Assembly (NCBI GenBank): GCA_013151735.1
Contig: JAADHR010000073.1
Span: 1 to 64,000, forward strand
Length of the DNA: 64,000 nucleotides
Origin: Calditrichota bacterium
GTDB lineage: Bacteria > Zhuqueibacterota > JdFR-76 > BMS3Abin05
Direction: 5' to 3'
A model generated the notes under the pieces. It searched no databases and was not told the DNA's origin. It saw only the letters and a program-made list of their open reading frames with translations. This document shows, one piece after another, positions 12,605-51,729 of this stretch. The position numbers and the translations under genes were made by a program. Positions within the stretch are counted from its first letter, which is position 1. Each line of letters begins with the position of its first letter.

Positions 12605-13672
12605 ATGGCTGATCAAAGCTCAGACAAAACCGAACAACCGACACCCAAGCGTCTTGAAGACGCACGCAAAAAAGGGAATGTTGCCAAAAGCATGGAAATC
12701 AATTCGGCGTTCATCCTGCTGACAGGGACGCTTACGTTGTTTTTTATTTCCGGGTATATGTTTCAAAATTTCTCGATGTTTATGCGTCATGTTTTCGGGG
12801 ATTTAATGACTTACCAGATTGCCCAGGATTCCATTCGAGCTTATGCCACTTCCCTGATCGCCATTTCCCTGAAATTAATGGCCCCGTTGATGCTGGCGAT
12901 TCTGGTTATTGGTGTTCTTTCAAATGTGGGACAGGTCGGGTTCCTGTTTACGCTGGAACCGGTCATTCCAAATCCCGAAAAAATTGATCCCATTAAGGGA
13001 TTCCAAAGAATATTTTCCATGCGTTCGGTTGAGGAATTGGTCAAGGGTGTTTTAAAAATCGCGATTATTGGTTATGTGATGTATCGGGTGATCAAAGGAC
13101 ACTACAACGACTATTTTCTGCTGATGGATCAGGGAACCGGACAGATCATTTCCTTTATGATGAAGGTGATTTTTCAGATGGCCATCTGGGCCTCGCTGAT
13201 CTTGGTGGTTTTGGCGGTTGCGGATTTTGCCTTCCAGAAGTGGAATTACATGAAAGACATGCGGATGACGAAGCAGGAAGTAAAAGAAGAGATGAAAGAG
13301 TATGAGGGAGATCCGCAGGTAAAGGGACACATCAGAAGCTTGCAAAGGGAAATGGCCCGAAAACGGATGATGTCCGATGTGCCCAAAGCCGATGTGGTTA
13401 TTACCAACCCAACCCACTACGCAGTGGCGCTTAAGTACGAGCCGGACGGAATGGATGCCCCCCGCGTGTTGGCCAAAGGCAGCCGGAAACTGGCCCTGAA
13501 AATTAAGGAAATTGCCAAAGAAAATGGCGTCCCGATTGTTGAGGACCCGCCGCTGGCCAGGGCGTTGTTCAAATCGACCGAAGTCGGAATGGAAATTCCC
13601 ATTGACCTGTTTCAGAGTGTGGCTGAGGTGCTGGCGTACATTTATCGATTGAAAGGGAAACAGCTCGCATGA
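12605..13672 (+). CDS. flhB: flagellar export switch protein FlhB
   Basis: FlhB sets export specificity after self-cleavage. Four membrane segments occupy residues ~25-215. The cytoplasmic domain has the autocleavage motif N268-P-T-H271 followed by YAVALKYE, almost at the E. coli position. Start motif DKTEQPTPKRLEDARKKGN is classic. Length 355 is normal. The stop overlaps the flhA start (ATGATGA). A second, free-standing FlhB C-domain gene occurs at 27265. Confidence 0.98.
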   Translation: MADQSSDKTEQPTPKRLEDARKKGNVAKSMEINSAFILLTGTLTLFFISGYMFQNFSMFMRHVFGDLMTYQIAQDSIRAYATSLIAISLKLMAPLMLAILVIGVLSNVGQVGFLFTLEPVIPNPEKIDPIKGFQRIFSMRSVEELVKGVLKIAIIGYVMYRVIKGHYNDYFLLMDQGTGQIISFMMKVIFQMAIWASLILVVLAVADFAFQKWNYMKDMRMTKQEVKEEMKEYEGDPQVKGHIRSLQREMARKRMMSDVPKADVVITNPTHYAVALKYEPDGMDAPRVLAKGSRKLALKIKEIAKENGVPIVEDPPLARALFKSTEVGMEIPIDLFQSVAEVLAYIYRLKGKQLA

Positions 13673-17748: not shown

Positions 17749-17832
17749 CCCGTTAGCGAATGTTCGGGTCAAATGGGTCAGGCAGGTATTGAAATCGGGA
17801 AAACACGACATAATGGCGGGATGGAGGTTTTG

Positions 17833-18636
17833 ATGGCAGTCAGTTTTATTGCGAAAAAGGCACAAGAATCCTATCGGGAAGAAATGGATATCCAGAAGCT
17901 CTGGTTGAAGTATGTACGGACCAGAGACGGTCAGATGAAAGAGCAGCTTCTGGTTCACTACTTGCCGGTGGTCAAATTTGTGGTGGGGCGAATGATGGTT
18001 TCGCTTCCGAACTCCGTCAATTTTGATGATCTGGAAAGCGCAGGCATTATGGGCCTGATTTCTGCCATCGATCGGTACAATCCCCAACTGGGCGTAAAAT
18101 TTGAGACCTTTGTTGTTCCCCGTATTCGGGGCGCTATTTTGGACGAATTACGCTCGTTGGACTGGGTTCCCCGTTCCGTGCGCAGCAAGGCCCGGCAGTT
18201 GGAAAAGGCTATTGAGGAGGTAGAAGCCAAAACCGGGAAGGCCGCCGATCCGATTGCGGTTGCTCAGCAGTTGAACATCAGTCTGGAAGAATATGATGCC
18301 ATGATCGGAAAAGTGGCGGCGGGTAATTCACTGCTCTCTCTGGATCGGGAATTTTCCGATGGAGATGATAAAAACGGTTCGATGTATGACCTGGTAAAAA
18401 ATGCCAAATCGGAGAATCCGGAGGGACAGTTAATTGATGAAGAGTTAAAGCAGGTGCTTATTGACGAAATCAACAATCTGCCGGAAAATGAACGCATGGT
18501 GATTTCTCTTTACTACTATGAAGAGTTAACGCTCAAAGAAATTGGAGTGATTCTCAATATTTCCGAATCGCGTGTGTCACAAATCCACACAAAGGCGATT
18601 AACCGCCTTAAGCATCGGTTAAAGACACACGTCTAA
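17833..18636 (+). CDS. fliA: flagellar sigma factor FliA (sigma-28)
   Basis: FliA directs transcription of late flagellar genes such as flagellin. Sigma region 2 (FDDLESAGIMGLISAIDRY, FETFVVPRIRGAILDELR), region 3 and region 4 (LPENERMVISLYYYEELT, ISESRVSQIHTKAINRL) are all present. The ATG at 17833 follows GGAGG by 6 bases and gives 267 residues; an upstream ATG at 17773 would add 20 unconserved residues. A matching promoter is seen before flagellin (46468-46494). Confidence 0.96.
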   Translation: MAVSFIAKKAQESYREEMDIQKLWLKYVRTRDGQMKEQLLVHYLPVVKFVVGRMMVSLPNSVNFDDLESAGIMGLISAIDRYNPQLGVKFETFVVPRIRGAILDELRSLDWVPRSVRSKARQLEKAIEEVEAKTGKAADPIAVAQQLNISLEEYDAMIGKVAAGNSLLSLDREFSDGDDKNGSMYDLVKNAKSENPEGQLIDEELKQVLIDEINNLPENERMVISLYYYEELTLKEIGVILNISESRVSQIHTKAINRLKHRLKTHV

Positions 18637-18665: not shown

Positions 18666-18983
18666 ATGGTACGTCCAATCGATGTTCAGGATAACCTGTC
18701 AAAAATCAGTTATATCGAAAAAATACAGCAGGCCCAGCAGGCCTCGGAGCAGACAGGACACGAACAATTCGTAAAGAATCTGAACCGTTTAGCGGAACAA
18801 AAGGCGAAAAAGACTCAGGATTCCAAAGAGACGGAAAAATCCAGGTACCGTGAGAAGCGCGAAAAACGGCGGAAAAAGAAATCATCCACCCAATTTTCGG
18901 GCACCCAAAAACCCATTGAAATGGAAACCGAAGACGACCAGCAGCATTTGATTCTTCATCATCACATTGATATTATTATTTGA
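18666..18983 (+). CDS. small conserved flagellar-operon hypothetical protein
   Basis: A 105-residue, very charged protein with no recognised domain. It begins MVRPIDVQDNLSKISYIEKI, continues as a Gln/Lys/Glu-rich, coil-prone stretch with a poly-basic segment (KREKRRKKK), and ends in a His/Ile-rich tail. Proteins with a similar R-P-I/V-D-x-Q start near fliA occur, as far as I recall, in other flagellar operons, so it may belong to a small conserved family. AAAGGAGG lies 5 bases before the ATG, indicating real translation. Function unknown. Confidence 0.75.
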   Translation: MVRPIDVQDNLSKISYIEKIQQAQQASEQTGHEQFVKNLNRLAEQKAKKTQDSKETEKSRYREKREKRRKKKSSTQFSGTQKPIEMETEDDQQHLILHHHIDIII

Positions 18984-19001
18984 ACGGAAAGGAACAGGCG
19001 A

Positions 19002-19952
19002 GTGAAATCGGGTTTGACGCCTCGAAAAGTGAAAGCGTTGGTCAATCATATTTACGATTTACCAACCCTGCCGACCACCATTGCCAAATTGTTGGAGTTA
19101 ATCGACAATCCCCGTTCCACCGCCTATCAGGTGGGACAAATGATTTCTGAAGATCAGGTCCTGACGGCTCATGTGCTTAAGTTGGCCAATTCGGCCTATT
19201 ACGGGTTTTCAAGGCGGATTAAAACCATTCCGCTGGCCATTGTGGTGCTGGGCTATGAAACACTCAAGAATGTTCTGTTAACCGTGTCGATTATCGACCG
19301 CTTTTCCCGGCAACCCAATGGCCTTCGATTTGATTTCTCCTTATTCTGGGATCATACCCTGGCAACAGCCGTTGCCAGTAAGGTATTGGCCAGAGATGTG
19401 GGCTACCAATTAACCGGAGAGGCCTTTGTGGCAGGCCTGCTTCACGACCTGGGAAAACTTATTCTGAGCCAGTATCTGCCGGAAGAATTTTCGAAAATTT
19501 ACCGGTTGAGTTTTCAGAATCGGGAGCCGATGTATAATATGGAGAAAAGGATGCTGAAAGGGGTTACTCACGCCGAGGTGGGGGCGTGGCTGGCTGAACA
19601 CTGGCATTTGCCGGGGTCTTTGGTGCAGGCCATCCGGTACCATCACGAACCGGCAAAAGCGCCTGTGGAGTCTTCTTTGGCCGCTCTTGTTCACATCGGG
19701 GATTATTTTGCGCGCAAGTATAAAATTGGATTTTCCGGGGATGTGTCTTTCCCGGTTCTTTCGAAAGACATCTGGAAGAAAATGTCATTGAATTCCAGCG
19801 GAGCCTTGGATTTGACCGATTTGAGCGCGTACGAAAAATATTTTTCTCAAAAGTTGGAGGGAGAATCAAGGCTTTTTGAGGCCTTGCGTGTGGAAAACTG
19901 GGGTGTGGTACGGCATTCGGAAACGCAGACGATGGCCGTTGAGATGATCTGA
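19002..19952 (+). CDS. HDOD domain signalling protein
   Basis: A 316-residue HDOD protein, a metal-less relative of HD phosphohydrolases used as a signalling scaffold. The family pattern is clear: IYDLPTLPTTIAKLLELID, ISEDQVLTAHVLKLANSAYY and VVLGYETLKNVLL in residues ~10-100. A second HD-like part includes AGLLHDLGKLILSQYLP (~residue 148) and HAEVGAWLAEHWHLP. The start is a GTG at 19002 with AAAGGA upstream. It opens the signalling island between fliA and flgF. Output or partners are not visible from sequence. Confidence 0.9.
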   Translation: MKSGLTPRKVKALVNHIYDLPTLPTTIAKLLELIDNPRSTAYQVGQMISEDQVLTAHVLKLANSAYYGFSRRIKTIPLAIVVLGYETLKNVLLTVSIIDRFSRQPNGLRFDFSLFWDHTLATAVASKVLARDVGYQLTGEAFVAGLLHDLGKLILSQYLPEEFSKIYRLSFQNREPMYNMEKRMLKGVTHAEVGAWLAEHWHLPGSLVQAIRYHHEPAKAPVESSLAALVHIGDYFARKYKIGFSGDVSFPVLSKDIWKKMSLNSSGALDLTDLSAYEKYFSQKLEGESRLFEALRVENWGVVRHSETQTMAVEMI

Positions 19953-19989
19953 GGATTGACGGGATAATTTCAATTCAGGGAAAAATACG

Positions 19990-21273
19990 ATGAATGCTTT
20001 TGGAACCTCCGAAGCAATTTTAAACAATTTAAATTTTGACAGAAAAAACGATCCTTTTTTATCGCCCAAGGCGGGAAATCTTTTCACATCAAAGTTTTAT
20101 AAAGAATTTCATTCCCTTACCAGTGAAAAGGACTTTTTTCAGTTTTCTCAAAAGTATTTAAAAAGACTACTGGGTTCAACGACGATCAGTTTTTACATCT
20201 GGAATGAGAAAACTCAGCAGTTTGAACCCGAGATTTTTGATGACTCGCTTGGATCCATCATTTCTTACCAGATTGAAGAAGGAATTGTGGAATGGCTTTT
20301 TAGTGAAGAAAACCTCATTTTTCTTCGGCCTGAAAAGGAACTAAATCTCTTCTCGAAACCGCTTTATGGAAAATTGCTGGTGCTGATCCCCTTGAAATTG
20401 TTGGGTAAGCCCATCGGCTTTTTTGAGGTTGTGACCCGTCGCTTCCGGCCGGATACCCTTCAGGAAAAACGCGTTCAGCTTCGGATGCTGGCCGCTCTTC
20501 TGTCGGGTCTGTTTGTTTCGCTTCACCTGAATCATAAAATTCAGAAGATTGAAAAAAACAGCCGGCAGATTGAATCCCAGATGTTTCAGTCAGGAAAACT
20601 TATTGCACTTGGCGAGCTGGTTGGGGGAATTGCCCACGAGATCAACAACCCCATGACAACGATTCTCGGGCGGCTTCAGATTATGAAAATAAAAAACAAC
20701 ATTCCAGAGGTGATGCGGGAAAAGCTGAAAATCGTGGAAAGTGAGGCCCAGCGCGTATCGGAAATCGTCAGGGATTTGCTCAATTTTGCCCGAAATAACC
20801 CGGAAAAGGACCGGCACGAAATTGTAAACATCAACCGGGTAATTGAAAAATCACTTGACCTCACGCGCCACAATCTGGAGGTGGACGGGATAGAGATCCG
20901 CTTAAAACTGGACCCCGAAATTCAGCATTTCCTGGGTAACACCCATCAGTGGCTGCAGGTTTTTGTGAACTTACTGGTCAATGCCCAGCAGGCTCTTCAA
21001 AGAAACGGAATAATAGCCATTGAAACCCGGCAAAAGAAACGGGAACTGATCATCCGGTTTAGAGACAATGGTCCGGGAATTCCGAAGGAGATTCAATCCA
21101 AAATATTCGATTCTTTTTACACTACCAAAGCCGGACGCGGCGGAACAGGGCTGGGACTGGCCATTACAAAAAAGATTGTGGAGTATCATGGCGGCAGGAT
21201 TTCTGTAAGAAATGTTTCCGGATGGGGAGCCGAATTTGAAATCCGCATCCCCGTAAAGGAGGAGGAAAACTAA
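19990..21273 (+). CDS. GAF-domain sensor histidine kinase
   Basis: A 427-residue, apparently cytoplasmic histidine kinase without membrane segments. Residues ~35-180 look like a GAF sensor domain. The phosphoacceptor motif GGIAHEINNPMTTILG places the histidine at H216. The ATPase domain shows the N box (NLLVNAQQAL), FRDNGPGIP and GGTGLGLAITKKIVEYHGG. All catalytic motifs appear intact. No dedicated response regulator is adjacent; the CheY-like protein at 23367 or the later receivers may be partners. The next gene begins one base after its stop. Confidence 0.92.
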   Translation: MNAFGTSEAILNNLNFDRKNDPFLSPKAGNLFTSKFYKEFHSLTSEKDFFQFSQKYLKRLLGSTTISFYIWNEKTQQFEPEIFDDSLGSIISYQIEEGIVEWLFSEENLIFLRPEKELNLFSKPLYGKLLVLIPLKLLGKPIGFFEVVTRRFRPDTLQEKRVQLRMLAALLSGLFVSLHLNHKIQKIEKNSRQIESQMFQSGKLIALGELVGGIAHEINNPMTTILGRLQIMKIKNNIPEVMREKLKIVESEAQRVSEIVRDLLNFARNNPEKDRHEIVNINRVIEKSLDLTRHNLEVDGIEIRLKLDPEIQHFLGNTHQWLQVFVNLLVNAQQALQRNGIIAIETRQKKRELIIRFRDNGPGIPKEIQSKIFDSFYTTKAGRGGTGLGLAITKKIVEYHGGRISVRNVSGWGAEFEIRIPVKEEEN

Positions 21274-21274
21274 G

Positions 21275-22678
21275 ATGAAATCATTCAAAAAAATGGCATG
21301 GATATTACTTCTCTCGTTGCTTTGTTTTTCGGCAAAGAGCAGTTTCGCACAGTTGACACTCATCACCAATGTTAAATATGTGTCTGGCGAAACGGAGGAC
21401 ATTTTGGATTTTACAACCACCTCCACCGTGCACGCCGTGAAGAAGGTATTCCCCCGGACGCAGTCTATTCTGATTCAATTGGTGCATACCGAATTTATGC
21501 CGGATTCGGAAGAGCGGTTTGTGAACATTGTGAAGCGGTGTTTTTTGCGGCCCAATGTGGCACAATTGAGCGATGGAACAATTTTCATTCTCTTTAAGGG
21601 GATTTCCGCATCCAAAATTCGGGTAGTAGAGGGCAGACACCGCCTGCGTTTCCGGATTCTGAAACGATCGCCGCAAACGGCCTATCTGGACAATTTCCGT
21701 AAGGGGGTCACTCTGGTCAAAAAGAAAAAATACCAGGCGGCATTGATCCATTTGCGACGCGCACTTCGCTACCGTCCCGGCGATGCAGCCGCCTATTTCT
21801 GGGCAGGCAAAGCGCGGTTTGCGTTGGGTGACTGGAAGGCGGCCCGATTTAATCTTGAACAGGCACGGCACGCGCCCTCTTTTGCGCGTGAAAGCGGACA
21901 ATTACTGGCCTTCATTCAGGCCAAGCAGGCGAAACCATCCGGTATCAAACGACCGGCCAATATATTCCGGGACGCAAACAGCGCTTCTGCTGCCAAATCC
22001 CCTTCCCGGGTGGCAGCAAAAGAGGAGGTGTCCCGGGCGGAAAATGCTGCCGCGGCCAGCCCGGACTCTCTGAAAGCGGCGGCGGTAGTCATAAAAAGAT
22101 CAACCGCCCAAAGGATTTCCACGAATCCGCCCGTCAAAACAGCCGGGGGGGTTACCCTACGGTCTGAAAATTCACTGGAAGGAAATGCCTCTTCCGGAAG
22201 CATCCAGTTGATTTTATTTCTGACGATTCTGGTTTTGTTGGTCTCTTTGCCCTTTTTGTGGCTCTGGAACAGGCGGGTTACACGCAGAAAATTGGTGCAG
22301 GCGGCGGAACCCTTCGAGAAAAATCTGGAGACCTTTCAGGTGCGCCAGCAGCATTTGCTTCGTCAATTTGAGGCCGAAAAAAATAAGGCCATGGTGGAAA
22401 CGGATTCCGTGTTAAAAAATCCGGCGGTTTCCCCGCCGCCGCGACCCAAAAAAGGTCCTGTCCCTTCGGATGAACCCCTCATTCGGAACCACTATTCGGA
22501 AAATGAAATTGTCAAAAAGACGAAGCGTTTTGCTTCCAGGGGATATACGTACGATGAAATTGCCCAAAAACTGGGCATGGGAAAGGGGGAATTGCAGCTC
22601 ATTATGAATCTGGCCGGTGAAACCATTGAGATGGCACAGAAAAGCGGGATGCGTTTAACCTTTGCTGAGGATCGTTAA
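21275..22678 (+). CDS. membrane TPR protein with C-terminal HTH-like motif
   Basis: Not a firmly named family. The 467-residue protein has a signal peptide or anchor (residues 1-26, ending SFAQ), a beta-rich exported domain (~27-130), one or two TPR units (~133-200), a low-complexity Ala/Ser/Lys linker, a membrane segment at ~309-331 (LILFLTILVLLVSLPFLWLW), and a cytoplasmic tail with GYTYDEIAQKLGMGKGELQL, resembling the DUF6115-type motif seen in some flagellar operons. It could link an envelope event to cytoplasmic control of flagellar genes; that is inference. Confidence 0.7.
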   Translation: MKSFKKMAWILLLSLLCFSAKSSFAQLTLITNVKYVSGETEDILDFTTTSTVHAVKKVFPRTQSILIQLVHTEFMPDSEERFVNIVKRCFLRPNVAQLSDGTIFILFKGISASKIRVVEGRHRLRFRILKRSPQTAYLDNFRKGVTLVKKKKYQAALIHLRRALRYRPGDAAAYFWAGKARFALGDWKAARFNLEQARHAPSFARESGQLLAFIQAKQAKPSGIKRPANIFRDANSASAAKSPSRVAAKEEVSRAENAAAASPDSLKAAAVVIKRSTAQRISTNPPVKTAGGVTLRSENSLEGNASSGSIQLILFLTILVLLVSLPFLWLWNRRVTRRKLVQAAEPFEKNLETFQVRQQHLLRQFEAEKNKAMVETDSVLKNPAVSPPPRPKKGPVPSDEPLIRNHYSENEIVKKTKRFASRGYTYDEIAQKLGMGKGELQLIMNLAGETIEMAQKSGMRLTFAEDR

Positions 22679-23361
22679 TGCTGTCACAGATCTTGGCAAA
22701 AGCGAATCTGAATCTGGATTTCATTTCCTTTTCCCGCATTCAGAATAGGTTCAGGCCGGAGCAGGTGGTGCGCGGCCGAATCATCCAACAGTTGCAGGGC
22801 CGTCTGTTTATCTTTCGGGCCAAAGGGCTGAGCCTGATTGCGGAGGCTACCGTTCCCCTGCAGGTTGGGGACAGGGTTACGGTAAAAGTGCAAAGAAATC
22901 GGAAACGGATCGAACTCAAACTTTTGGAGGTTAACGGAAAACCGGTAAAAGAAGGACAGAACATTCCGTTACCCAATGTTCATTATGCCAGGCTTCCGGT
23001 ACCCAAGGAGTTTTTGGGAAGGGACGGGTTCCTGGAGATTTATGATTACAAAAAGGAAGAAAACGATTTTACAGAGGATCAGGGGCAGGCACTTAGTTTT
23101 CAATTGCTTTTGGAGATCGGGGATTCTGACTTTGTGGTACTGAAGGCTTATCGCTCAAAAAACAGCCGCAATTTTAAGATATTTTCAACCGATCCGGAAT
23201 TTTCAAAGAGGATGAACAGCCATTTATCTCTTTTAGCGGATTGGCTTTCGAAACCGGAAGACGAATCGGTTTTTGTACAGGTGATGTATCGAAAATATCG
23301 GGATTTATTTCACTCCGCAACGGAACTGACTTCTGAAAAATCACTGAATGTGAGGGTGTAG
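22678..23361 (+). CDS. FliK-related protein (N-terminal OB-like part)
   Basis: A 227-residue protein. The stretch VVRGRIIQQLQGRLFIFRAK and VPLQVGDRVTVKVQ (residues ~30-85) resembles the beta-rich domain of the second type of FliK/YlqG proteins in Gram-positive and other bacteria. It lacks the C-terminal Flg_hook domain, at least by eye. Its ATG overlaps the previous stop by one base. The paired partner in such systems is a free FlhB C-domain, and one is encoded at 27265. Assignment to the FliK superfamily is tentative. Confidence 0.5.
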   Translation: MLSQILAKANLNLDFISFSRIQNRFRPEQVVRGRIIQQLQGRLFIFRAKGLSLIAEATVPLQVGDRVTVKVQRNRKRIELKLLEVNGKPVKEGQNIPLPNVHYARLPVPKEFLGRDGFLEIYDYKKEENDFTEDQGQALSFQLLLEIGDSDFVVLKAYRSKNSRNFKIFSTDPEFSKRMNSHLSLLADWLSKPEDESVFVQVMYRKYRDLFHSATELTSEKSLNVRV

Positions 23362-23366
23362 TGTCT

Positions 23367-23750
23367 ATGAAAAAAAAGCGGTTGATGTTTGTCGATGATG
23401 AACCGGAAATTCTGGAAATATTGCAGGATATTTTTGAGCGTTCCTCATTTGAAATTATGACGGCGGGTACCGGAGGAAAAGCGATCAAACTCGTCCAGGA
23501 GTCCTTCATTGATCTTATTCTTTGCGATCTGAAATTGCCGGATATTTCAGGCCTTGAAGTTTTGAAAAAGGCGAAGGAGAAACAGCCTGGTGTGAAAGCG
23601 GTGTTAACCACCGGATATTATGACCCCCTGAACAGTCAAAAAGAAGACCACACACGTTTTATTGATAAATTTATTCCGAAACCATGGGACATTATGAATT
23701 TGAAACGAGAAATTCAAAGTCTTTTGGGCACGGCTTCTGTAAACCGGTGA
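23367..23750 (+). CDS. CheY-like single-domain response regulator
   Basis: A 127-residue receiver domain without an output domain. Acidic pocket FVDDE, phosphorylation site D54 in LILCDLKLPD, Thr in AVLTTGYYD and Lys in IPKPWD are present, so it should be phosphorylatable. It lies between the FliK-like gene and a receiver-kinase hybrid, whose coding frame starts just downstream. The ATG at 23367 is preferred over a GTG at 23361 that overlaps the previous stop. Whether it binds FliM like true CheY is unknown. Confidence 0.92.
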   Translation: MKKKRLMFVDDEPEILEILQDIFERSSFEIMTAGTGGKAIKLVQESFIDLILCDLKLPDISGLEVLKKAKEKQPGVKAVLTTGYYDPLNSQKEDHTRFIDKFIPKPWDIMNLKREIQSLLGTASVNR

Positions 23751-23779
23751 ATTTTGGGCCACTTATTTTGGAGAAAAAA

Positions 23780-25132
23780 ATGGAGCAGGTTCCCAAAAGT
23801 CCATTGCGTGAAAATACCATTCTAATCGTTGATGATGATAAATTCTTTCTGAATTTTATCCATTTGGTATTGAAAAAACAAGGATACCAGGTATTGACAG
23901 GGAACAATGGGAAAGAAGGGCTGGCTATTCTGGAAAAGAAAACGCCTGACCTCATTATTTCCGATGTCATGATGCCGGAAATGAATGGGATCGAGTTTTG
24001 CAAGGCGGTTAAAGCAAATCCCAAAACTAAGGACGTCTATTTTCTGGTATTGACCTCGAAATCGGAGATCTCGGAGAAAATCAGGCTGTTGGATATTGGG
24101 GCGGATGATTTCCTCAGCAAGCCGGTGAACAACGACGAACTCCTGGCCAAGGTTCGGGCCAGCATGAGAATCCGGGACTTGCAGCGCGAATTAAAGGAAA
24201 GCAACCAGCGTCTGACCCAGTTGAATACCCAGCTTCAACAAACCACGCAGTACCTGCAAAAAGCCAATCGTGAAATCAAGGAGGCGCAATCCCAGCTGCT
24301 TCAACACGAAAAGATGGCCTCAATTGGTCAGTTGGCTGCGGGAGTGGCGCACGAAATCAACAATCCTATCGGATTTATTTATTCCAATCTCTCGGTTTTG
24401 CAGGACTACATTGCAGACCTGCTTTCCTTTTTTCAAAGGTACAGGGCATTGAAAAAGGCCGTTCAAACCGGACGAATGGAAACCGTTCTGTCCGCATTCA
24501 AGGAGTTGGAGAAGGCGGAAAAAGAAATAGACCTTGATTTTATAATGGATGATTTTGAAAAGATTGTTCGGGAATCTTTGGATGGGGCCGAGCGCGTTAA
24601 GGTAATTGTTCAGGATTTGAAGGATTTTTCACACATTGATCAGGCGGAAGTAAAATATTTCAACCTGAATCAGGGGCTGGAAAGCACGCTAAATATTGTC
24701 TGGAATGAAATCAAGTACAAGGCAAAGGTTATTAAGGAATATGGGGACATTCCTGAGGTCCGCTGTTATCCCATGCAGCTCAATCAGGTTTTTATGAATT
24801 TGCTTGTGAATGCGGCCCAGGCGATTGAAAAGAACGGGCTGATCAAAATAAAGACATTTGCCAAAAAGAATCGGATTTATGTCCAAATTACCGACAATGG
24901 CTGTGGGATTCCGAAAAAAAATCTGCATCGGATTTTTGATCCCTTTTTTACGACCAAAGAAGTGGGTAAAGGCACAGGGTTGGGATTGAGCACCGCCTAC
25001 AATATCATTAAAAAACACAACGGGGAAATCCGTGTCGAGAGCAAGGTAGGCAAGGGTACGCGGTTTACAATTGAATTGCCCATTGAGGCCGTGCCTGAAA
25101 AAGAAGAAGCGGAACAAATGTTAAAAAAATAG
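23780..25132 (+). CDS. receiver-histidine kinase hybrid protein
   Basis: The protein (450 residues from the ATG at 23780) has an N-terminal receiver with D62 ([12 protein letters not shown]), a long coiled coil (~residues 135-180), a HisKA motif with H191 ([15 protein letters not shown]), and a complete ATPase domain ([37 protein letters not shown]). It is cytoplasmic. A receiver in front of a kinase lets phosphorylation by another kinase modulate activity. An upstream extension to 23684 would overlap the previous gene and read as out-of-frame shadow. GGAG lies ~8 bases upstream of the chosen ATG. Confidence 0.92.
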
Positions 25133-25151
25133 AACAGAAATGGTATGAACC

Positions 25152-25970
25152 ATGCAAAAAAAATACAATGTTTTGTGTGTAGATGACGAGGAAAATGTCC
25201 TTCGGGCGCTTCAAAGAAGTTTTCGGAAGGAAATGTTTAATGTTTTTGTAGCCTCGTCCGGCCGTGAAGGGCTGAAAATACTGAATAATCTGGCCGTCCA
25301 CTTGATTATTGCGGATTTCCGGATGCCTGAAATGAATGGTGTGGAGTTTTTTACCCAGGCCAGGAAAATACAGCCGGATGCCATTCGTATCCTGCTGAGC
25401 GGCTACGCCTCTATCGAAATGGTGACAAAGGCGGTAAACAAAGGCGGGATCTATCGTCTCTTAACCAAGCCCTGGAATGAAATTGAATTGCGGCAGGAAG
25501 TAAACCTGGCGCTTCAGCACTGGGAATTGGTGCAGAGAAACCGAAAGTTAAACAAAAAGATTGAAGAACAGCTCCTGGAATTGAAAAGCATGAATCGCCA
25601 GTTGGAAGATATCGTGGAAGAGCGTACGCGTGAAATTCTGATTAAGAATCAGGCGCTTGAGTTATCCCATCAAATATTGGACAATCTCCCCACGGCCGTT
25701 ATGGGCGTGGCCACGGAAAAATATATTGTCTATTTAAATAAAGAAGCTGAAGAAATCCTTCAGACGCAGGAAATCAAGCCTATTGGCAAAAAAGTGGACG
25801 ATGTTTTCCCGAGAGAGATTTCACAGACAATCGGTGAAAGCATCGACAAAAATCAAAAGTCGGAATTGAGTCGTTACGACTATCTGGGTAAGACGTTTCA
25901 CATAAAAGCCGGTCCGGTTCAGGATGAATTTGCTACGCGTGGAGCAACGGTTGTGTTTTTCGAGATTTAA
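25152..25970 (+). CDS. receiver-PAS protein
   Basis: A 272-residue protein with an RpfG-type receiver (D55 in LIIADFRMPEMNG, LSGYASIEMVTKAVNKG, LLTKPWNEIELRQEV), a coiled-coil linker (~residues 130-168), and a C-terminal PAS-like domain starting at ILDNLPTAVMGV. There is no catalytic output domain. The receiver type usually precedes HD-GYP domains, and the next gene has exactly that architecture, suggesting a duplicated receiver with divergent outputs. It probably signals by protein-protein contact. Confidence 0.88.
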   Translation: MQKKYNVLCVDDEENVLRALQRSFRKEMFNVFVASSGREGLKILNNLAVHLIIADFRMPEMNGVEFFTQARKIQPDAIRILLSGYASIEMVTKAVNKGGIYRLLTKPWNEIELRQEVNLALQHWELVQRNRKLNKKIEEQLLELKSMNRQLEDIVEERTREILIKNQALELSHQILDNLPTAVMGVATEKYIVYLNKEAEEILQTQEIKPIGKKVDDVFPREISQTIGESIDKNQKSELSRYDYLGKTFHIKAGPVQDEFATRGATVVFFEI

Positions 25971-25988
25971 TGAATATGGAGATTGCTA

Positions 25989-27278
25989 ATGTCCTCACAT
26001 AAAATTTTATTCGTTGATGATGAAGAAAATATCTTGCACACGCTCATGCGGATCTTCCGAAAGGACGATATTGACGTTCTTACGGCAACCAGCGGGATGA
26101 AAGGACTTGAATTGGTTCGGTCCAACGATATCTCCGTTGTGGTTTCTGACCAGAGAATGCCGCACATGACCGGTACGGAATTCCTCTCACGGGTTAAAAA
26201 GATTTCCCCCGAATCCATTCGTATGATCTTAACCGGCTATGCCGATATCAAGGCCACCATGGCGGCCATCAATAGTGGAGAGGTGTACCGGTATATCACA
26301 AAACCCTGGAAAGAAGATGAGTTTCGCCAAATTATTCACGAAGCCCTGCAAAAATATGACCTGTCTCAGGAAAATAAGCGTCTCAGAAACCTGATCGTTA
26401 AACAGAATAACATGCTCAAAAAATTAACGGAGGACCTGGAAGAAGAAGTTCTGAAAAAGAATCAGGAATTGATTTCAAAAAATAAGACACTGGAAAAACT
26501 TAATAAAGACCTGGAAGACAGTATTTTTGAAACCATTAAGACCTTTTCCAGCCTGTTGGAAATGCGTGATTTTTATGTGGGAAGTCACTCAAAACGTGTG
26601 GCAACGGCATCCAGATTTATCGCACGGCGCCTGGGCCTGTCCGATTCTGAAGTGAATCAGATTGAAATGGCGGCCATATTGCATGACATTGGAAAAATCA
26701 GTGTGCCGGATCCGGTTTTGCAAAAAAGTCCCTCTCAAATGTCAAAGAATGAATTCTTGATCTACCGGAATCACCCCATTGTCGGCCAAACGACTTTGAT
26801 GACGATCAAGAAACTTGAAGGATTGGGACAAATTGTCCGAAGCCATCACGAACTGCTGAACGGGACGGGATTCCCGGATCAGCTGAAGGGAGAAAACATT
26901 CCCTTTGGGGCACGAATTATTAGTGTTCCCAACGCTTATGACAATCTGATTTACAGGAGGGGAACCTATCGAAAAAGCCTTGAAGAAGATGCCATCACCT
27001 ACCTCAAAGGGAACCGGAATGTTTTATTCCAGGGGAAATTTGTGGACTACTTTCTGGAGTATTTGAAATATCAGGATGAAGAAGATAGAAATACCAGCGA
27101 AATGAAGGTGGATGTTTCCGATTTGCGTGAGGGAATGGTCTTGACGCGGGATGTGTACACGGCCAAGGGGGTGCTTCTGGCACCAAAAGGCGAGCGGTTG
27201 AAACAATCCTACATCAATCGGATTATTCAATACAATCGGATAGATCCGATTATTGAGGGAATTTATGTCCACAATTGA
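25989..27278 (+). CDS. receiver-HD-GYP protein (candidate c-di-GMP phosphodiesterase)
   Basis: A 429-residue RpfG-like protein. The receiver has D54 (VVVSDQRMPHMTG) and LTGYADIKATMAAINSG. A coiled coil (~115-175) leads to an HD-GYP domain with HSKRVA, ILHDIGK (H232-D233) and NHPIVGQ. The signature motif reads HHELLNGTGFP rather than HHExxDGxGYP, so the GYP is GFP. The HHE and HD metal ligands are retained, so activity is plausible but uncertain. A C-terminal ~60-residue extension follows the HD-GYP fold. In flagellar context it could lower c-di-GMP to favour motility. ATG at 25989 has GGAG upstream. Confidence 0.9.
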   Translation: MSSHKILFVDDEENILHTLMRIFRKDDIDVLTATSGMKGLELVRSNDISVVVSDQRMPHMTGTEFLSRVKKISPESIRMILTGYADIKATMAAINSGEVYRYITKPWKEDEFRQIIHEALQKYDLSQENKRLRNLIVKQNNMLKKLTEDLEEEVLKKNQELISKNKTLEKLNKDLEDSIFETIKTFSSLLEMRDFYVGSHSKRVATASRFIARRLGLSDSEVNQIEMAAILHDIGKISVPDPVLQKSPSQMSKNEFLIYRNHPIVGQTTLMTIKKLEGLGQIVRSHHELLNGTGFPDQLKGENIPFGARIISVPNAYDNLIYRRGTYRKSLEEDAITYLKGNRNVLFQGKFVDYFLEYLKYQDEEDRNTSEMKVDVSDLREGMVLTRDVYTAKGVLLAPKGERLKQSYINRIIQYNRIDPIIEGIYVHN

Positions 27279-27576
27279 TACCGATCGTGAAAAACATTTG
27301 CCCGTCACAGGTGCGGCTGCACTAACATACGATCCCGAAAGAGATGAAGCTCCCCGCATAATTGCCCGGGGGAGAGGGGTACTGGCTGAAAAAATTATCG
27401 ACGAGGCAAGGAAAAACGGAATTCCCCTGATTGAAGACCGAATGTTATTTGAAATCCTGTACCAATTGGAGATAGGCTCTGAAATACCGGCCACTATTTA
27501 TGAACCTGTGGCAAAAATATTAACGTTTATTTACACGATGTATCAAAAACAGAATAAAAAGAGCGGAGAGTTTTGA
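27265..27576 (+). CDS. free-standing FlhB C-terminal domain protein (FhlB/YlqH-like)
   Basis: A 103-residue protein matching only the C-terminal cytoplasmic domain of FlhB: AAALTYDPERDEAPRIIARG, AEKIIDEARKNGIPLIED and YQLEIGSEIPATIYEPVAKI. The NPTH autocleavage site of FlhB is absent, as in FhlB/YlqH proteins. The full-length flhB is at 12605. The ATG at 27265 overlaps the preceding gene by 14 bases and has GAGGGA 4 bases upstream. FhlB can functionally replace the FlhB fragment in other bacteria, so this may be a modulator of export specificity. Confidence 0.9.
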   Translation: MSTIDTDREKHLPVTGAAALTYDPERDEAPRIIARGRGVLAEKIIDEARKNGIPLIEDRMLFEILYQLEIGSEIPATIYEPVAKILTFIYTMYQKQNKKSGEF

Positions 27577-28037
27577 TGAAATATGGCGGTGGGGATAAGA
27601 AATGCGTCCAATCCATCAAAATTGAGTTTGACGGAAGTCCGGAATTATTGAGAGTTGTGCGGGCCTGCATTTCCGAATTTGGCTTAAATAGGGGATTTAA
27701 TTCACAGGAAATTTACGACATGAATTTATCGGTTAATGAGGTTTGTGCCAATATTATGGAGCATGTGTACGGCTGGGACGCGGAATCAAAAATTACAATA
27801 CGCATTAAAGCCGACGCCGAGGGCATCACCATTTGGGTGAGAGACTACGGTGAATCAAAGGACCCGACGCAATTTAAATCCAGGAATTTGAATGAGATGG
27901 AGGGAAGCGGACTCGGTATATTCTTGGTCAACGAACTCATGGATGAGGTTCAATACAACAATGAAATAAACGAGGGAAATGAGATTATCATGAAAAAATA
28001 CCATGGTCGAGGAATGGAGGAAATGAATGAAATATAA
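27576..28037 (+). CDS. RsbW/SpoIIAB-like serine kinase (anti-sigma type)
   Basis: A 153-residue HATPase_c_2 protein, the kinase part of a partner-switching module. The N box reads NLSVNEVCANIMEHVYG, the nucleotide pocket WVRDYGES, and the glycine-rich lid EGSGLGIFLVNELMD. In known systems such kinases bind a sigma factor or effector and are released when the STAS partner is dephosphorylated. The STAS gene follows, overlapping by 11 bases. Its start overlaps the fhlB-like stop (ATGA). Its target here is unknown. Confidence 0.93.
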   Translation: MKYGGGDKKCVQSIKIEFDGSPELLRVVRACISEFGLNRGFNSQEIYDMNLSVNEVCANIMEHVYGWDAESKITIRIKADAEGITIWVRDYGESKDPTQFKSRNLNEMEGSGLGIFLVNELMDEVQYNNEINEGNEIIMKKYHGRGMEEMNEI

Positions 28038-28362
28038 CATTCAAAGGCAGGGAGATGTTGTTGTGTTAGTTCCTGAGGGAGAATTGGATGTCTCAAATGT
28101 ACCGGAATTACAAAACGCGTTTGAAAAAATCTTGGGAGAGGGGTACACAAAGGTTGTCATTGATTTAAGCAAGGTGACGTACATGGATAGTTCGGCGCTT
28201 GGGGTTTTGGTGAATGGTTTGAAAGAGCTTCGCAAAAAAAACGGCATGCTAAAAATTGCCAATCTCAATGGAAATGTGGAACGCATTTTCCAGTTAACAC
28301 GGCTTATTAAGTTTTTTGAAACCTATCCAACGACCGAAGAAGCAGCGCTGTCATTGGGTTAG
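28027..28362 (+). CDS. STAS-domain anti-anti-sigma protein (SpoIIAA/RsbV-like)
   Basis: A 111-residue STAS protein. The phosphorylation motif YMDSSALGVLVN carries S55-S56, equivalent to the serine phosphorylated by RsbW-type kinases. It overlaps the kinase gene and has GGAGG shortly upstream of its ATG, typical of a partner-switching pair. No PP2C phosphatase (RsbU/SpoIIE type) is present in the window, so the dephosphorylating input must lie elsewhere. Confidence 0.94.
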   Translation: MKYNIQRQGDVVVLVPEGELDVSNVPELQNAFEKILGEGYTKVVIDLSKVTYMDSSALGVLVNGLKELRKKNGMLKIANLNGNVERIFQLTRLIKFFETYPTTEEAALSLG

Positions 28363-28395
28363 TCGGTTTTGAATGTAATCGGAAGAGGAAAGCAA

Positions 28396-28869
28396 ATGGA
28401 ACTCGTATTAAAAGATTGGTCGTATGATTGGAATGAGAATACCCTGCTCCAATCGGATGATTGGACAGAGTCGTTTTTTGAAGAAATGGTTCATGGGGTT
28501 CGGAATGAGGTGGGATTTCAGTGGATTTCTCTCTATTGGGTTCGGGACAGAGATGGCTCATTGATGGAAGTTGGTATTACCGAACACGGATTTAACATGA
28601 TTAACGATATCCAGTTTGAAAATGGTAATGGGTTGGCGGGTTGGGTTGCAAAATATCAACGTCCCATTGTCTTGCGTCACGTACATCGCGGCCAGCGCTT
28701 TCGAAGCAATCCCATTAAATCGTTTATGTGCGTTCCCATCATTTGGGAAGGAAAAACGAAGGGTGTGGTAAATCTGGGACACATCAGACCCAACCACTAT
28801 TCAGACAGAAGTCTTAAAAAACTGCTTGCCTATTTTGAACTATTTTTTACGAAGAGGATTTTGGAGTAA
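28396..28869 (+). CDS. GAF-domain protein
   Basis: A 157-residue single-domain protein with GAF features: FEEMVHGVRNEVGFQWISLY at the N-terminus, NGLAGWVAKYQRPIVL in the middle and FMCVPIIWEGKTKGVVNLGH toward the end. It has no output domain and could sense a small ligand for the neighbouring signalling proteins. The ATG at 28396 has GAGGAAA upstream; a TTG at 28369 would add nine residues. The stop overlaps the next start by one base. Confidence 0.8.
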   Translation: MELVLKDWSYDWNENTLLQSDDWTESFFEEMVHGVRNEVGFQWISLYWVRDRDGSLMEVGITEHGFNMINDIQFENGNGLAGWVAKYQRPIVLRHVHRGQRFRSNPIKSFMCVPIIWEGKTKGVVNLGHIRPNHYSDRSLKKLLAYFELFFTKRILE

Positions 28870-29942
28870 TGCTGGGCAATAGGAAAATTCTGCTTATTGA
28901 TGATAATCCTGAAATCCACATGATGATGCGCATTATTTTGCGCCAGAATGGATATCAGCTTTTTTCGGCCTATAATGGCGAAGAGGGATTGACGAAAATC
29001 ACAGAGGTGAATCCTGATGTTATTATTCTGGATTATATGATGCCCAAAATAAGCGGGGAACAGGTATTTGAAACCTTCATTACCGATGAAAAATATGCAA
29101 ACTATCAGCACATTCCTGTTCTCATGCTGACGGCCCGGACAGAGAATCGCCTGCGCCGTCAGGAATTTTTGGAAAAGGGGCTTTACGGTTACCTGACCAA
29201 ACCCTTTGGCATGCGGGAACTGGTTGAAATTATTGATTCTACTTTGCAAAAGGCCAGGGATTTCAGGCAGCAGCGGAATCTGTTCAAGGTCACCAAAGAG
29301 GCAAAAGATTTTCTTGAAGATTTGGTGGAATCCATTCCGGATGCTATTTTTATTGTCAACCAGGAGTTCAAAATCACCTATTTTAAACGGTGTTTCTCCG
29401 GCATTTTGGGCCTTTCTGAGAAGGATGTTTTGGGAAAGGACTTCAGACAACTTGTCCACAACGATTCTCTTCGGTCAGTGAGTGACCTGTTGGAAGGAAA
29501 GAAAGAAAAGAATCAGATGGTTGAAGTGGTGCTGAAAACGGCAACCGGAGAGGGTGTACCGTTCTACATTACAATTACCCAAATGAAAAATGAAAACCAA
29601 AAGAAAATTGGAAGCCTGATTGTGGCTACCGATATTTCGGATTTAAAAAAATTGCAGGAGAAAATTATTCAGCAAGAAAAAGCGGCCATGTTTATGGAAA
29701 CAGCGGTTGCAGTCAATCACGAAATAAACAATCCTCTGGCGCCCATTCTCGGAAATGCGCAGCTCCTTCTCAAAGACAAAGACAAACTGGATGCAGTTTC
29801 TGTTAAGCGGCTTAAAGCCATTGAACGAAATGCCCACCGCATTTTTGAAATTACCCAAAAACTGCGGAAAATCAAGGATCCTGTCAGCACAGAATATTTG
29901 GGAGAAACCAAAATGCTCGATCTCAAGGAATCTCTGAAATAG
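28869..29942 (+). CDS. receiver-PAS-phosphoacceptor protein lacking the ATPase domain
   Basis: A 357-residue protein with a receiver (D55 in IILDYMMPKISG), a PAS domain (~residues 150-260, starting LVESIPDAIFIVNQ), and a HisKA-type dimerisation helix pair with H284 in VAVNHEINNPLAPILG. It stops about 70 residues later, without N, G1 or G2 boxes of a HATPase. The end MLDLKESLK is followed by a clean stop and no kinase-like reading frame continues, so it does not look like a fresh truncation. It may be a phospho-histidine relay or a scaffold using another kinase's ATPase. Confidence 0.85.
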   Translation: MLGNRKILLIDDNPEIHMMMRIILRQNGYQLFSAYNGEEGLTKITEVNPDVIILDYMMPKISGEQVFETFITDEKYANYQHIPVLMLTARTENRLRRQEFLEKGLYGYLTKPFGMRELVEIIDSTLQKARDFRQQRNLFKVTKEAKDFLEDLVESIPDAIFIVNQEFKITYFKRCFSGILGLSEKDVLGKDFRQLVHNDSLRSVSDLLEGKKEKNQMVEVVLKTATGEGVPFYITITQMKNENQKKIGSLIVATDISDLKKLQEKIIQQEKAAMFMETAVAVNHEINNPLAPILGNAQLLLKDKDKLDAVSVKRLKAIERNAHRIFEITQKLRKIKDPVSTEYLGETKMLDLKESLK

Positions 29943-30069: not shown

Positions 30070-30085
30070 TGGCACGCCTGTTGCT
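30070..30085 (+). promoter_or_regulatory. sigma-54 (RpoN) promoter for flgF-flgG
   Basis: TGGCACG at 30070-30076, four bases, then TTGCT at 30081-30085 is a perfect match to the -24/-12 consensus, with GG and GC 10 bases apart. It lies 54 bases before the flgF start. No sigma-54 activator gene is seen in the window. Confidence 0.88.
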
Positions 30086-30138: not shown

Positions 30139-30870
30139 ATGATCAGAGGACTTTACATTTCAGCAGCCGGTATGCTGCCACAAGACATGGAGCAGGAGGT
30201 TGCCGCAAATAATTTGGCCAATATCAATACAACCGGTTATAAAAAGGATGCGGTTCACTTTAAGCGTCTTTTGGATGAACGGCTTTCCCTCGATTCACTT
30301 CACGGCGGGGAAAGCGATGTGTCCAATTCCGAAGAAACCCTGATTAATTTTTCCCAGGGTGAGCTTCAGCCCACCGATGTCAAAACAGACCTGGCCATTG
30401 ATGGCGACGGCTTTTTTTCCATTGAAACACCTGACGGCGTGCGTTTTACCCGTGATGGAAACTTTACATTGAATGAAGAAAATCAATTGGTAACGAAAAG
30501 CGGAAACCCCGTCCTGGGGGAATCCGGCCCCATTCAGCTCTTTGATGGAGATTTTGAAGTCAAACAAAACGGGGATATTTTTCAGAACGGGAATTTGGTT
30601 GATCGATTGAGCATCGTAACGTTTCCCAGGCCGCTGCCGCTTAAAAAGGCGGGAGAAGGTCTGTTTGAACTGACCGTGCCCAGTATTCATCCACAGGAAT
30701 CGGAGCACTTTACCGTACAGCAGGGGTTTTTGGAAGGATCCAATGTAAATGCCATCTCGGAGATGGTGAAGATGATTACGATCGACAAAAGTTTCCAGGC
30801 CGGACAGAAGGCCATTCAGGCCCAGAACGAAACGCTTGGAAAGCTCATTAACCAGACGGCTCGATATTAA
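30139..30870 (+). CDS. flgF: flagellar rod protein FlgF
   Basis: A 243-residue proximal rod protein. N-terminal signature EVAANNLANINTTGYKKD and C-terminal NVNAISEMVKMITIDKSFQ are typical of rod/hook family. Its shorter size and order before flgG support FlgF. It is the first gene after a clear sigma-54 promoter. Ribosome binding site AAGGA lies about 10 bases before the ATG. Confidence 0.92.
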   Translation: MIRGLYISAAGMLPQDMEQEVAANNLANINTTGYKKDAVHFKRLLDERLSLDSLHGGESDVSNSEETLINFSQGELQPTDVKTDLAIDGDGFFSIETPDGVRFTRDGNFTLNEENQLVTKSGNPVLGESGPIQLFDGDFEVKQNGDIFQNGNLVDRLSIVTFPRPLPLKKAGEGLFELTVPSIHPQESEHFTVQQGFLEGSNVNAISEMVKMITIDKSFQAGQKAIQAQNETLGKLINQTARY

Positions 30871-35089: not shown

Positions 35090-35611
35090 ATGAAAACGAA
35101 AACAACGCCGATCCGTTCCGGCGACCGGGACACACTTTTTTACCGGGAATTGCTGCACATTCTGCGGAAAGAAAATGCTCTCCTGAAAGAATTGTTAAAC
35201 AACTACGAGATTCAAAGAGAAGCCCTAATTAAGAATGATCTGCAGGTATTTATAAAAAATCTTGAAGAACAACAGATTTTGGTCTGGGAAGCCGACTCGA
35301 CCGAGAAAAAACGTAAGGACCTGTTAATCCGACATTTCCCGGAACGCGAGGCAGATGAGATGGTTTTAACCGAACTGCTTCATGACGCGCCTGGAGAGTT
35401 GCAGGAAGACCTGCAGCAACAACGAGAATCTATTCGCCTGCTCATTTCAAAAGTGAATCTTTACCGGGAAACCAATCGGCGCCTCATTCAAAAATCCCTC
35501 GAAATGCTCAATTACCGCATTCGGTTACTCACCCAGTGGAGTGAAAGATTTTATACGCAGGATGGAAATCACGAGAATTCACTGCCAAAATTAGTCAATA
35601 AAAAGGCCTGA
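35090..35611 (+). CDS. flgN: FlgN-like flagellar export chaperone
   Basis: A 173-residue, almost all-helical protein (ELLHILRKENALLKELLNNY, then coiled-coil and ETNRRLIQKSLEMLNYRIRL) matching the FlgN family by pattern and by position directly before flgK and flgL, whose products FlgN chaperones. Sequence identity of FlgN proteins is always low, so context carries much of the call. Confidence 0.83.
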   Translation: MKTKTTPIRSGDRDTLFYRELLHILRKENALLKELLNNYEIQREALIKNDLQVFIKNLEEQQILVWEADSTEKKRKDLLIRHFPEREADEMVLTELLHDAPGELQEDLQQQRESIRLLISKVNLYRETNRRLIQKSLEMLNYRIRLLTQWSERFYTQDGNHENSLPKLVNKKA

Positions 35612-51275: not shown

Positions 51276-51713
51276 ATGGTGGCAAAGCAGGGATTGGAAT
51301 CCTATTTAAATACGAGTATCGATACGCTGGATGCCGGGAAACTTATTGTGCTGTTATATGATAAACTGGAAGAAAAGCTGCAATTGGCCATTGATCGGCT
51401 CAATGATGGGGATATGATGGGAAAGGGAAATGCAATTCTCAAAAGTCAGGATATTATAATGGAATTATTGTCTTCTCTGAATTTAAAAACAGGCCAAATC
51501 GCTATAAATCTTCAGGCTATTTACCTTTTTATGTTTCGAGAACTCAATCGGATTAATCTTGAAAAAGATGTGAATGCACTGAAAAAGGTGCTCAGAGCGG
51601 TTCAGGAGTTAAAAAGTGCATGGGTTGAAATTACCACAAAGAAAAAAAGTGAAACAACGCAAGCAAAGCATCCGGACAAACGGCAGCAGAAAACACTGGC
51701 CATTGTTGCTTGA
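51276..51713 (+). CDS. fliS: flagellin export chaperone FliS
   Basis: A 145-residue helical chaperone of flagellin. Family pattern: GLESYLNTSIDTLDAGKLIV-LLYD near the N-terminus and INLQAIYLFMFRELNRINLE. The ATG at 51276 follows GGAGGT by 5 bases; an in-frame start at 51258 would lack a ribosome binding site. It follows fliD, the standard fliD-fliS order. Confidence 0.94.
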   Translation: MVAKQGLESYLNTSIDTLDAGKLIVLLYDKLEEKLQLAIDRLNDGDMMGKGNAILKSQDIIMELLSSLNLKTGQIAINLQAIYLFMFRELNRINLEKDVNALKKVLRAVQELKSAWVEITTKKKSETTQAKHPDKRQQKTLAIVA

Positions 51714-51729
51714 CGAAAGGATAATGGAA

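Follow-up and report, generated by a model that had tools for sequence, protein, structure and literature searches.

Why should some 14 signalling and export-control genes be packed between fliA and flgF in a bacterial flagellar gene cluster? The question is raised by a stretch of 64,000 nucleotides from a Calditrichota bacterium (assembly GCA_013151735.1, contig JAADHR010000073.1), hereafter the window. It corresponds to contig C73 of genome G000, which amounts to 3.95 Mb in 225 contigs (G, f, C and L are our handles for genomes, families, contigs and loci). A first-pass annotation of this block had proposed that a phosphorelay and a cyclic di-GMP (c-di-GMP) step feed a partner-switching module of an RsbW-like kinase and a STAS protein, which acts on the sigma factor FliA or on export specificity through an FhlB-like protein, here called FlhX. 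Judged from gene content across relatives, the stable core of the block is an export-control set comprised of the membrane protein FipT, the FliK-like protein FliK2 and FlhX, and not the phosphorelay or the partner switch. We put at about one in two the probability that the block serves as a signal-fed checkpoint module for flagellar export and assembly.

The block forms one tight operon (18666-29942) with all genes on the + strand. Neighbouring genes are spaced by -26 to +37 bases, while 196 bases separate the last block gene from flgF. Pfam domains agreed with the proteins named in the first-pass annotation, and one further gene, orf105, whose product had no Pfam match, also belongs to the operon. 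For the protein called a GAF-kinase (GAF-HK), Pfam recovered the HisKA and HATPase domains, whereas the GAF part had no match. The composition profile of the block was not distinct from that of the remainder of the flagellar cluster. The same 13 island genes recur in identical order in a congener (G001) whose genome was assembled independently; thus the block is not an assembly accident.

Gene-order conservation among relatives had been named as a check on the original proposal. Since FliK2 is the most specific block member, its alignment profile was used as the marker in a search of 82 genomes, 33 of which have a flagellar FlhA. Block members were then scored by orthologue-built profiles on six-frame translations of the loci. 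A weak FliK2 match in G067, inside a very long frame, was left out of the count. The genes were not scattered: the block was found at the same site in 15 of the 33 flagellated genomes of the phylum, representing six families. It sits 3' of fliA wherever the contig is long enough, and nearly always extends to flgF. Five genomes (G002, G003, G004, G005 and G006) share the order HDOD, GAF-HK, FipT, FliK2, a receiver (REC) and/or receiver-histidine kinase (REC-HK), FlhX, GAF and a receiver-PAS-DHp protein (RPD), within the reach of their contigs. Family f12 (G034, G015, G054, G032, G061, G045) has orf105, HDOD, FipT, FliK2, FlhX, RsbW, STAS, GAF, RPD and flgF; the HDOD gene is absent in G054 and G032, and the G045 contig stops after FlhX. 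In family f9, G050 has the block up to GAF, followed by flgF with RPD absent, and G023 has fliA, orf105, HDOD, FipT, FliK2, RsbW, STAS and GAF, with FlhX not detected. In families f7, f8, f10, f11, f18 and f21, fliA is mostly followed directly by flgF, or other genes lie between them. At the same site G067 encodes three STAS-containing proteins (L141:7340-9653), preceded by an AMIN-TPR-DUF6115 protein and followed by flgF.

The stable members were orf105, FipT, FliK2, FlhX and GAF, followed by RPD and HDOD. Beside fliA, the core of FipT, FliK2 and FlhX is almost always accompanied by GAF and usually by the ATPase-less DHp protein and HDOD, and signalling members were gained or lost around it across the 15 genomes. 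GAF-HK was seen only in order-level relatives, the stand-alone receiver was present in f1, G002, G004 and G006, and among the genomes searched the receiver-PAS and receiver-HD-GYP genes were limited to G000 and G001, the window's genus. RsbW and STAS were both present in 8 of the 12 genomes with a visible FlhX-GAF interval; one (G004) has STAS alone, and three (G002, G005, G006) have neither. The original model is therefore borne out in part. A conserved, flagellum-linked unit exists, and RsbW and STAS have their critical residues intact (see below). A partner switch at its core is not supported by the four genomes that lack RsbW, or RsbW and STAS, and keep fliA and the rest of the block, nor is a phosphorelay at its core by family f12, where GAF-HK and REC-HK are both absent.

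Reduced forms of the block occur in other phyla. The Magnetococcales locus L205 reads flhG, fliA, a DUF2802 protein, FliK (Flg_hook, 38.4 bits) and FlhX, with no signalling genes between, and in Desulfuromonas (L207) a DUF2802 protein is all that separates fliA from flgF. The DUF2802 matches in ten proteobacterial genomes were all sub-threshold and were used for their gene context. We infer that the Magnetococcales arrangement shows the module in its bare state, before signalling genes were inserted, the direction of this change being part of the inference.

What kind of proteins make up the core? FipT had been described as a TPR membrane protein. The TPRs were recovered; its likeness to SwrB and FipA had been missed, as had the older unit that it forms with the FliK-like protein and FlhX. 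For FipT a signal peptide is predicted, and the model continues with a beta domain of high confidence (residues 28-129), TPR helices up to about residue 219 and a disordered linker. A membrane helix spans 307-332; beyond it come one long helix (344-381) and three short ones (409-447). Relatives at the same site matched AMIN with 30.6 bits in G067 (cut-off 20.5) and 19.4 bits, just below it, in G032. The C-terminal part matched DUF6115 in nine of nine members and DUF2802 in six of nine (E<=0.1), the window protein falling below the curated cut-off and some other members above it. Compared with the SwrB set of Bacilli by hhalign, this domain reached a probability of 98.4% over 39 columns. The pattern G-x15-E-x2-L was shared by each of the 9 FipT and 8 SwrB-type proteins (G423, E439 and L442 in the window FipT). 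Its spacing of 16 and 3 equals that of G110, E126 and L129 of FipA, which are invariant and of which G110 and L129 are required for binding FlhF (PMC11620751). The predicted order of membrane helix, coiled coil and small helical domain in FipT also matches FipA.

SwrB of Bacillus (DUF6115), which activates the export gate through FliP (PMC4526659), resembles FipT in its homologous C-terminal helix-turn-helix (HTH) domain, in the triad spacing, in a single membrane helix ahead of a coiled region and in a gene located downstream of the sigma-28 gene, sigD. DUF6115 occurs in Bacillus subtilis, and in Bacilli a DUF6115 gene lies 3' of the sigma-28 gene, either directly (L211) or after one small open reading frame (ORF; L215 and L216), which is SwrB's place. 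SwrB-type proteins have about 160-190 aa, whereas FipT is extended by a periplasmic AMIN-like and TPR part: about 280 residues (AMIN-like, TPR and linker) precede its membrane helix, so it is not a short protein of the SwrB/FipA kind. Unlike swrB, the FipT gene lies several genes from fliA. FipA of gamma-proteobacteria (DUF2802), the partner of FlhF, has in common with FipT the membrane helix, the coiled region, the G/E/L spacing and the flhF-flhG-fliA vicinity; unlike FipT it is almost devoid of a periplasmic part (PMC11620751).

FliK2 (227 aa) has an OB/S1-like N part and lacks the ruler region. The window protein alone had no Pfam match; five of its nine orthologues matched Flg_hook, and its C part matched the substrate-switch domain of PscP (5cuk; probability 0.99, E 0.14). 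Both results support the FliK-like label that it had been given. FlhX aligns with the window's FlhB from just past the NPTH cleavage site, with the NPTH motif and the membrane part absent, and its TIGR00789 match (96.0 bits) was below the cut-off of 117.35. Since an ordinary FliK and an ordinary FlhB are also encoded in the window, the block duplicates both faces of the specificity switch in soluble form. One FlhX-FliK pair is ylqG-ylqH of Bacillus. As here, the pairs of Campylobacterota and Nitratiruptor have the gene for the free FlhB C-domain either next to that for a FliK-type switch domain or at a distance of one to several genes (PMC9321776). Compared with these pairs, FliK2 is short and has an OB-like N domain, and receiver and kinase genes lie between FliK2 and FlhX.

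Around this core, the signalling arm combines several domain types. The best NCBIfam resemblance of GAF-HK was to AtoS/ZraS, below the cut-off. RPD has a receiver, a PAS domain and a complete DHp domain with HEINNP, and 73 residues follow His284, with no G1 or G2 box. Ten of ten RPD orthologues end after the DHp domain at the same point, all lacking the catalytic ATP-binding domain of histidine kinases; RPD is therefore not a truncation artefact. The GAF gene lies directly 5' of RPD in ten genomes, and a single GAF-DHp protein without ATPase domain is encoded near fliA in Glassbacteria (L087) and Hatepunaea (L121), in the latter between fliA and flgF. Given this adjacency and fusion, the GAF and DHp parts probably act together. 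HD-GYP domains have the consensus DGTGYP and VaDxyDA, the latter containing a metal-ligand Asp. The HD of the receiver-HD-GYP protein is present, but in both genomes that encode it these motifs read NGTGFP and VPNAYDN, with one metal-ligand position altered, so catalysis is not to be assumed. Given this and its restriction to one genus, the proposed c-di-GMP step is not supported as a core part of the system. The HDOD proteins SadB and GsmR affect flagellar gene expression, and the HDOD protein here is likewise flagellum-linked; as described in their papers, SadB and GsmR are not in a flagellar operon with block-type genes (PMC6543031).

Outside flagellar clusters, in Gemmatimonadetes and another bacterium, an HDOD gene is directly followed by a gene for a PAS-DHp protein without ATPase domain (L089:8821-10681, L093:4113-5989), which suggests that HDOD and orphan DHp proteins work together. 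In Zixibacteria/GN15, HEINNPL-type DHp proteins that end without an ATPase domain (L074:2953-4116, L085:2957-3721, L099:1499-2290, L076, L081, L083) form a recurring family outside flagellar loci, several of them beside a purF-like gene. Hybrid sensor kinases from the contig scan (most of L059-L134) share only receiver or DHp pieces and were set aside.

The block looks like an old assembly checkpoint, consisting of a SwrB/FipA-like protein and spare switch domains of FliK and FlhB, to which signalling proteins were later joined. FliK-FlhB switching and the activation of FliP by SwrB (PMC4526659) meet at the proteins that the core resembles; in Salmonella, a 2026 study proposed that FliK flips the switch when it removes the cleaved C-domain of FlhB (PMC13344023). 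The checkpoint would operate where the operon of the export apparatus and fliA meets the flgF operon, itself under sigma-54 control. The AMIN/TPR part of FipT would anchor it in the envelope, and its SwrB/FipA-type cytoplasmic domain would license or position the export apparatus, with FlhF or FliP as a partner. FliK2 and FlhX, as soluble copies of the FliK-FlhB switch faces, would modulate early versus late export. GAF and RPD may be supplied with phosphoryl groups or ligands by kinases that vary from lineage to lineage, and relay the state of assembly or of the environment to the export switch, to late or sigma-54 gene expression, or to both; RsbW-STAS would be an optional output arm. A more specific version, in which FlhX, an uncleavable-type FlhB C-domain, re-docks on the export gate after FliK ejects the original one, making the early-to-late switch reversible and signal-dependent under the control of FliK2 and of GAF, DHp and HDOD proteins (with RsbW-STAS), seems to us very unlikely.

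Several points weigh against the checkpoint. The FliK2 model is of moderate confidence (mean pLDDT, the predicted local distance difference test, 71), as the E value of its PscP match also indicates. FlhX-FliK pairs elsewhere are without a well understood role. In family f12 the block contains no kinase for RPD. The best whole-chain match of FipT in the PDB was 9hmf_K, a Campylobacter periplasmic flagellar scaffold; we gave this match no weight since its superposition was loose (root-mean-square deviation 21) and most other matches were generic TPRs.

Could the block instead control FliA? RsbW and STAS keep the residues that a partner switch needs. The N-box Glu and Asn of RsbW are kept in six of six proteins, with the HATPase_c_2 fold and G boxes present, and the equivalog cut-offs of named RsbW/SpoIIAB (NCBIfam) were not reached. 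The phosphorylatable Ser motif of STAS (DS-x-x-LG) occurs as DS(S/A)ALG in seven of seven proteins and as DSSALG in the window. The genes lie near fliA, which encodes a sigma factor of the SigB/SigF-related group, and 8 SpoIIE phosphatases encoded elsewhere in the genome could serve them. Pfam revealed no SpoIIE/RsbU (PP2C) phosphatase in the block itself. FlgM, which was searched for phylum-wide and with a custom profile, is encoded in the window and coexists with RsbW in G000, G032 and G054, with weak support in G050; it was not found in the stretches of G015 and G034 examined, which cover part of their flagellar genes. Replacement of FlgM by RsbW as a general rule was rejected on account of the three genomes that have both. 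Since FlgM is present in the window and coexists with RsbW, RsbW is not simply the anti-sigma factor of FliA, and these data, with the loss of RsbW-STAS in three genomes that retain fliA and the block, argue against RsbW as an essential FliA regulator. The reading of the first-pass annotation, in which a phosphorelay and a c-di-GMP step feed an RsbW-STAS pair that holds or frees FliA, is thus quite unlikely, also in view of the altered, genus-specific HD-GYP; of its two proposed outputs, the better fit is export specificity by way of the FhlB-like protein, and the poorer one action on FliA. We regard as unlikely a related scheme in which unphosphorylated STAS sequesters FlgM and frees FliA, with RsbW setting STAS phosphorylation. 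Its model would be HsbA of Pseudomonas, which has FlgM as a binding partner and is connected with flagellar genes and c-di-GMP, and the HptB-HsbR-HsbA-HsbD system resembles the block in combining a STAS protein, receivers and a c-di-GMP enzyme with flagellar genes (PMC5085249). FlgM is available in the window, and STAS occurs without RsbW in G004. However, neither the HPt protein HptB nor the receiver-PP2C-kinase HsbR was among the block proteins by Pfam, an RsbW-type kinase is found instead and only in part of the lineages, and the f2 genomes G002 and G005 have FlgM but no STAS.

The signalling genes could also mainly serve transcription of flgF. A TGGCAY-N5-TTGC site is present in the gap before flgF in ten of ten genomes, compared with 0.055 expected in shuffled gaps (<=1 mismatch), and is the sole exact match in the window. 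Given this conserved sigma-54 site, the transcript of fliA probably ends with the block and a sigma-54 unit begins at flgF. A scan of the window for sigma-28 type promoters gave no matches beyond chance, and the sigma-70-like and terminator-like scans, which did little or no better than shuffled sequence, were disregarded. The kinases and the DHp protein might then act on an NtrC-type activator that fires the flgF promoter, as in FlgS-FlgR and FlrB-FlrC, the block being the sensing half of a four-tier cascade. The resemblance of GAF-HK to AtoS/ZraS, which are partners of such activators, and the approximately 32 sigma-54 activators in the genome agree with this, but no activator gene is linked in the window or on contig C84, and the block persists in f12, which has a separate kinase-activator pair near flgB and chemotaxis genes; we consider the proposal rather unlikely. 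That AtoS/AtoC-like pair (L198:3789-6439) is itself a candidate activator of the flgF promoter. Finally, unrelated regulators may have accumulated in a highly expressed operon without a common function, as the differing signalling-gene composition of the lineages would allow. The same core order at one site in six families, the translational overlaps and the occurrence of GAF-DHp fusions at this site in two further phyla make this highly improbable.

Table 1. Features of the fliA-flgF block and related genes in the window.
Feature	Position	Strand	Evidence and remarks
fliA, sigma-28	17773-18636	+	NCBIfam FliA_WhiG 271.9 bits (cut-off 189.6); upstream border
orf105, small polar protein	18666-18983	+	Orthologues at same site in nearly all block-bearing genomes
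HDOD protein	19002-19952	+	PF08668 214.8 bits
GAF-HK, GAF-type histidine kinase (DHp and ATPase domain)	19990-21273	+	Pfam HisKA, HATPase_c
FipT: signal peptide, AMIN-like, TPR, membrane helix, coiled coil, SwrB/FipA-type HTH	21275-22678	+	
FliK2: S1/OB-like N domain, FliK/PscP switch (T3S4) C domain	22678-23361	+	
Stand-alone receiver	23361-23750	+	PF00072 71.1 bits
REC-HK, receiver-HisKA-HATPase	23684-25132	+	Mechanical ORF; ATG at 23780 likelier start
Receiver-PAS protein	25152-25970	+	Pfam
Receiver-HD-GYP, NosR-type (Pfam receiver-HD_5)	25983-27278	+	NF053512 461 bits (cut-off 400)
FlhX/FhlB, free FlhB C-domain	27253-27576	+	PF01312 (Bac_export_2 C-domain) 70.1 bits
RsbW-like serine kinase	27573-28037	+	PF13581 (HATPase_c_2) 88.5 bits; ATG at 27576 likely
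STAS anti-anti-sigma-like protein	28027-28362	+	STAS 90.9 bits; TIGR00377 94.5 bits (cut-off 53.45)
GAF protein	28369-28869	+	PF13185/PF01590
RPD, receiver-PAS-DHp (Pfam receiver-PAS-HisKA)	28869-29942	+	Phosphoacceptor His284; no ATPase domain
Sigma-54 type site TGGCACGCCTGTTGC	30070-30084	+	Upstream of flgF; downstream border of block
flgF	30139-30870	+	
FlgM, anti-sigma-28 factor	52191-52643	+	PF04316 34.7 bits (cut-off 25); outside block
Ordinary FliK, 822 aa	42-2510		Flg_hook 55.2 bits
Ordinary FlhB	12605-13672		

Some further observations concern other flagellar genes of this genome. The window FlgM (150 aa) exceeds the usual length and carries another, similar helix pair at its C-terminus; it takes the same form in G003, G032 and G054. 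Two FlgN-type chaperone genes are present (35090-35611 and 51616-52176). Between csrA and flagellin lies a gene for an 1882-aa protein (38699-44347) with a methyltransferase, several glycosyltransferases and TPRs; it is kept in block-bearing relatives and its role is probably flagellin glycosylation. The residual basal-body genes, flgC to fliJ, are located on a separate 11.9 kb contig (G000:C84, L203), beside a Der-like GTPase gene.

How much of this was known? A sub-module of sigma-28, FapA, YjfB and a transmembrane (TM) HTH protein has been noted around FlgV, and, as here, a membrane HTH protein and small genes stand beside sigma-28 in many phyla; that account makes no mention of FlhX, FliK2, HDOD, GAF-DHp or a partner switch (PMC11607428). 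In FlgV's place, between flhG and fliA, family f12 encodes a small membrane protein (L036:6938-7216, L037:6072-6344, L139:4450-4767). The window lacks this protein, its flhG and fliA being separated by 24 bases. The parts are thus known already, namely sigma-28 with the TM+HTH protein (PMC11607428), flhX-fliK (PMC9321776) and partner switching onto FlgM (PMC5085249). No description of the combined block was found in the literature searched, most subscription papers being outside its reach, and no literature linking FlhF, HDOD and a flagellar gene cluster was found there.

SwrB of Bacillus and FipA of Vibrio and Pseudomonas, which were described separately, are here joined in one family that is encoded beside fliA in several phyla, with FipT as a new, envelope-anchored form. 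With a separate FlhB C-domain and a FliK switch domain in one operon with an ATPase-less DHp protein, a regulated or reversible specificity switch becomes testable, in relation to the mechanism proposed in Salmonella (PMC13344023). Through the block, environmental signalling proteins are linked physically, and in a conserved way, to the components that determine what the flagellar export gate secretes.

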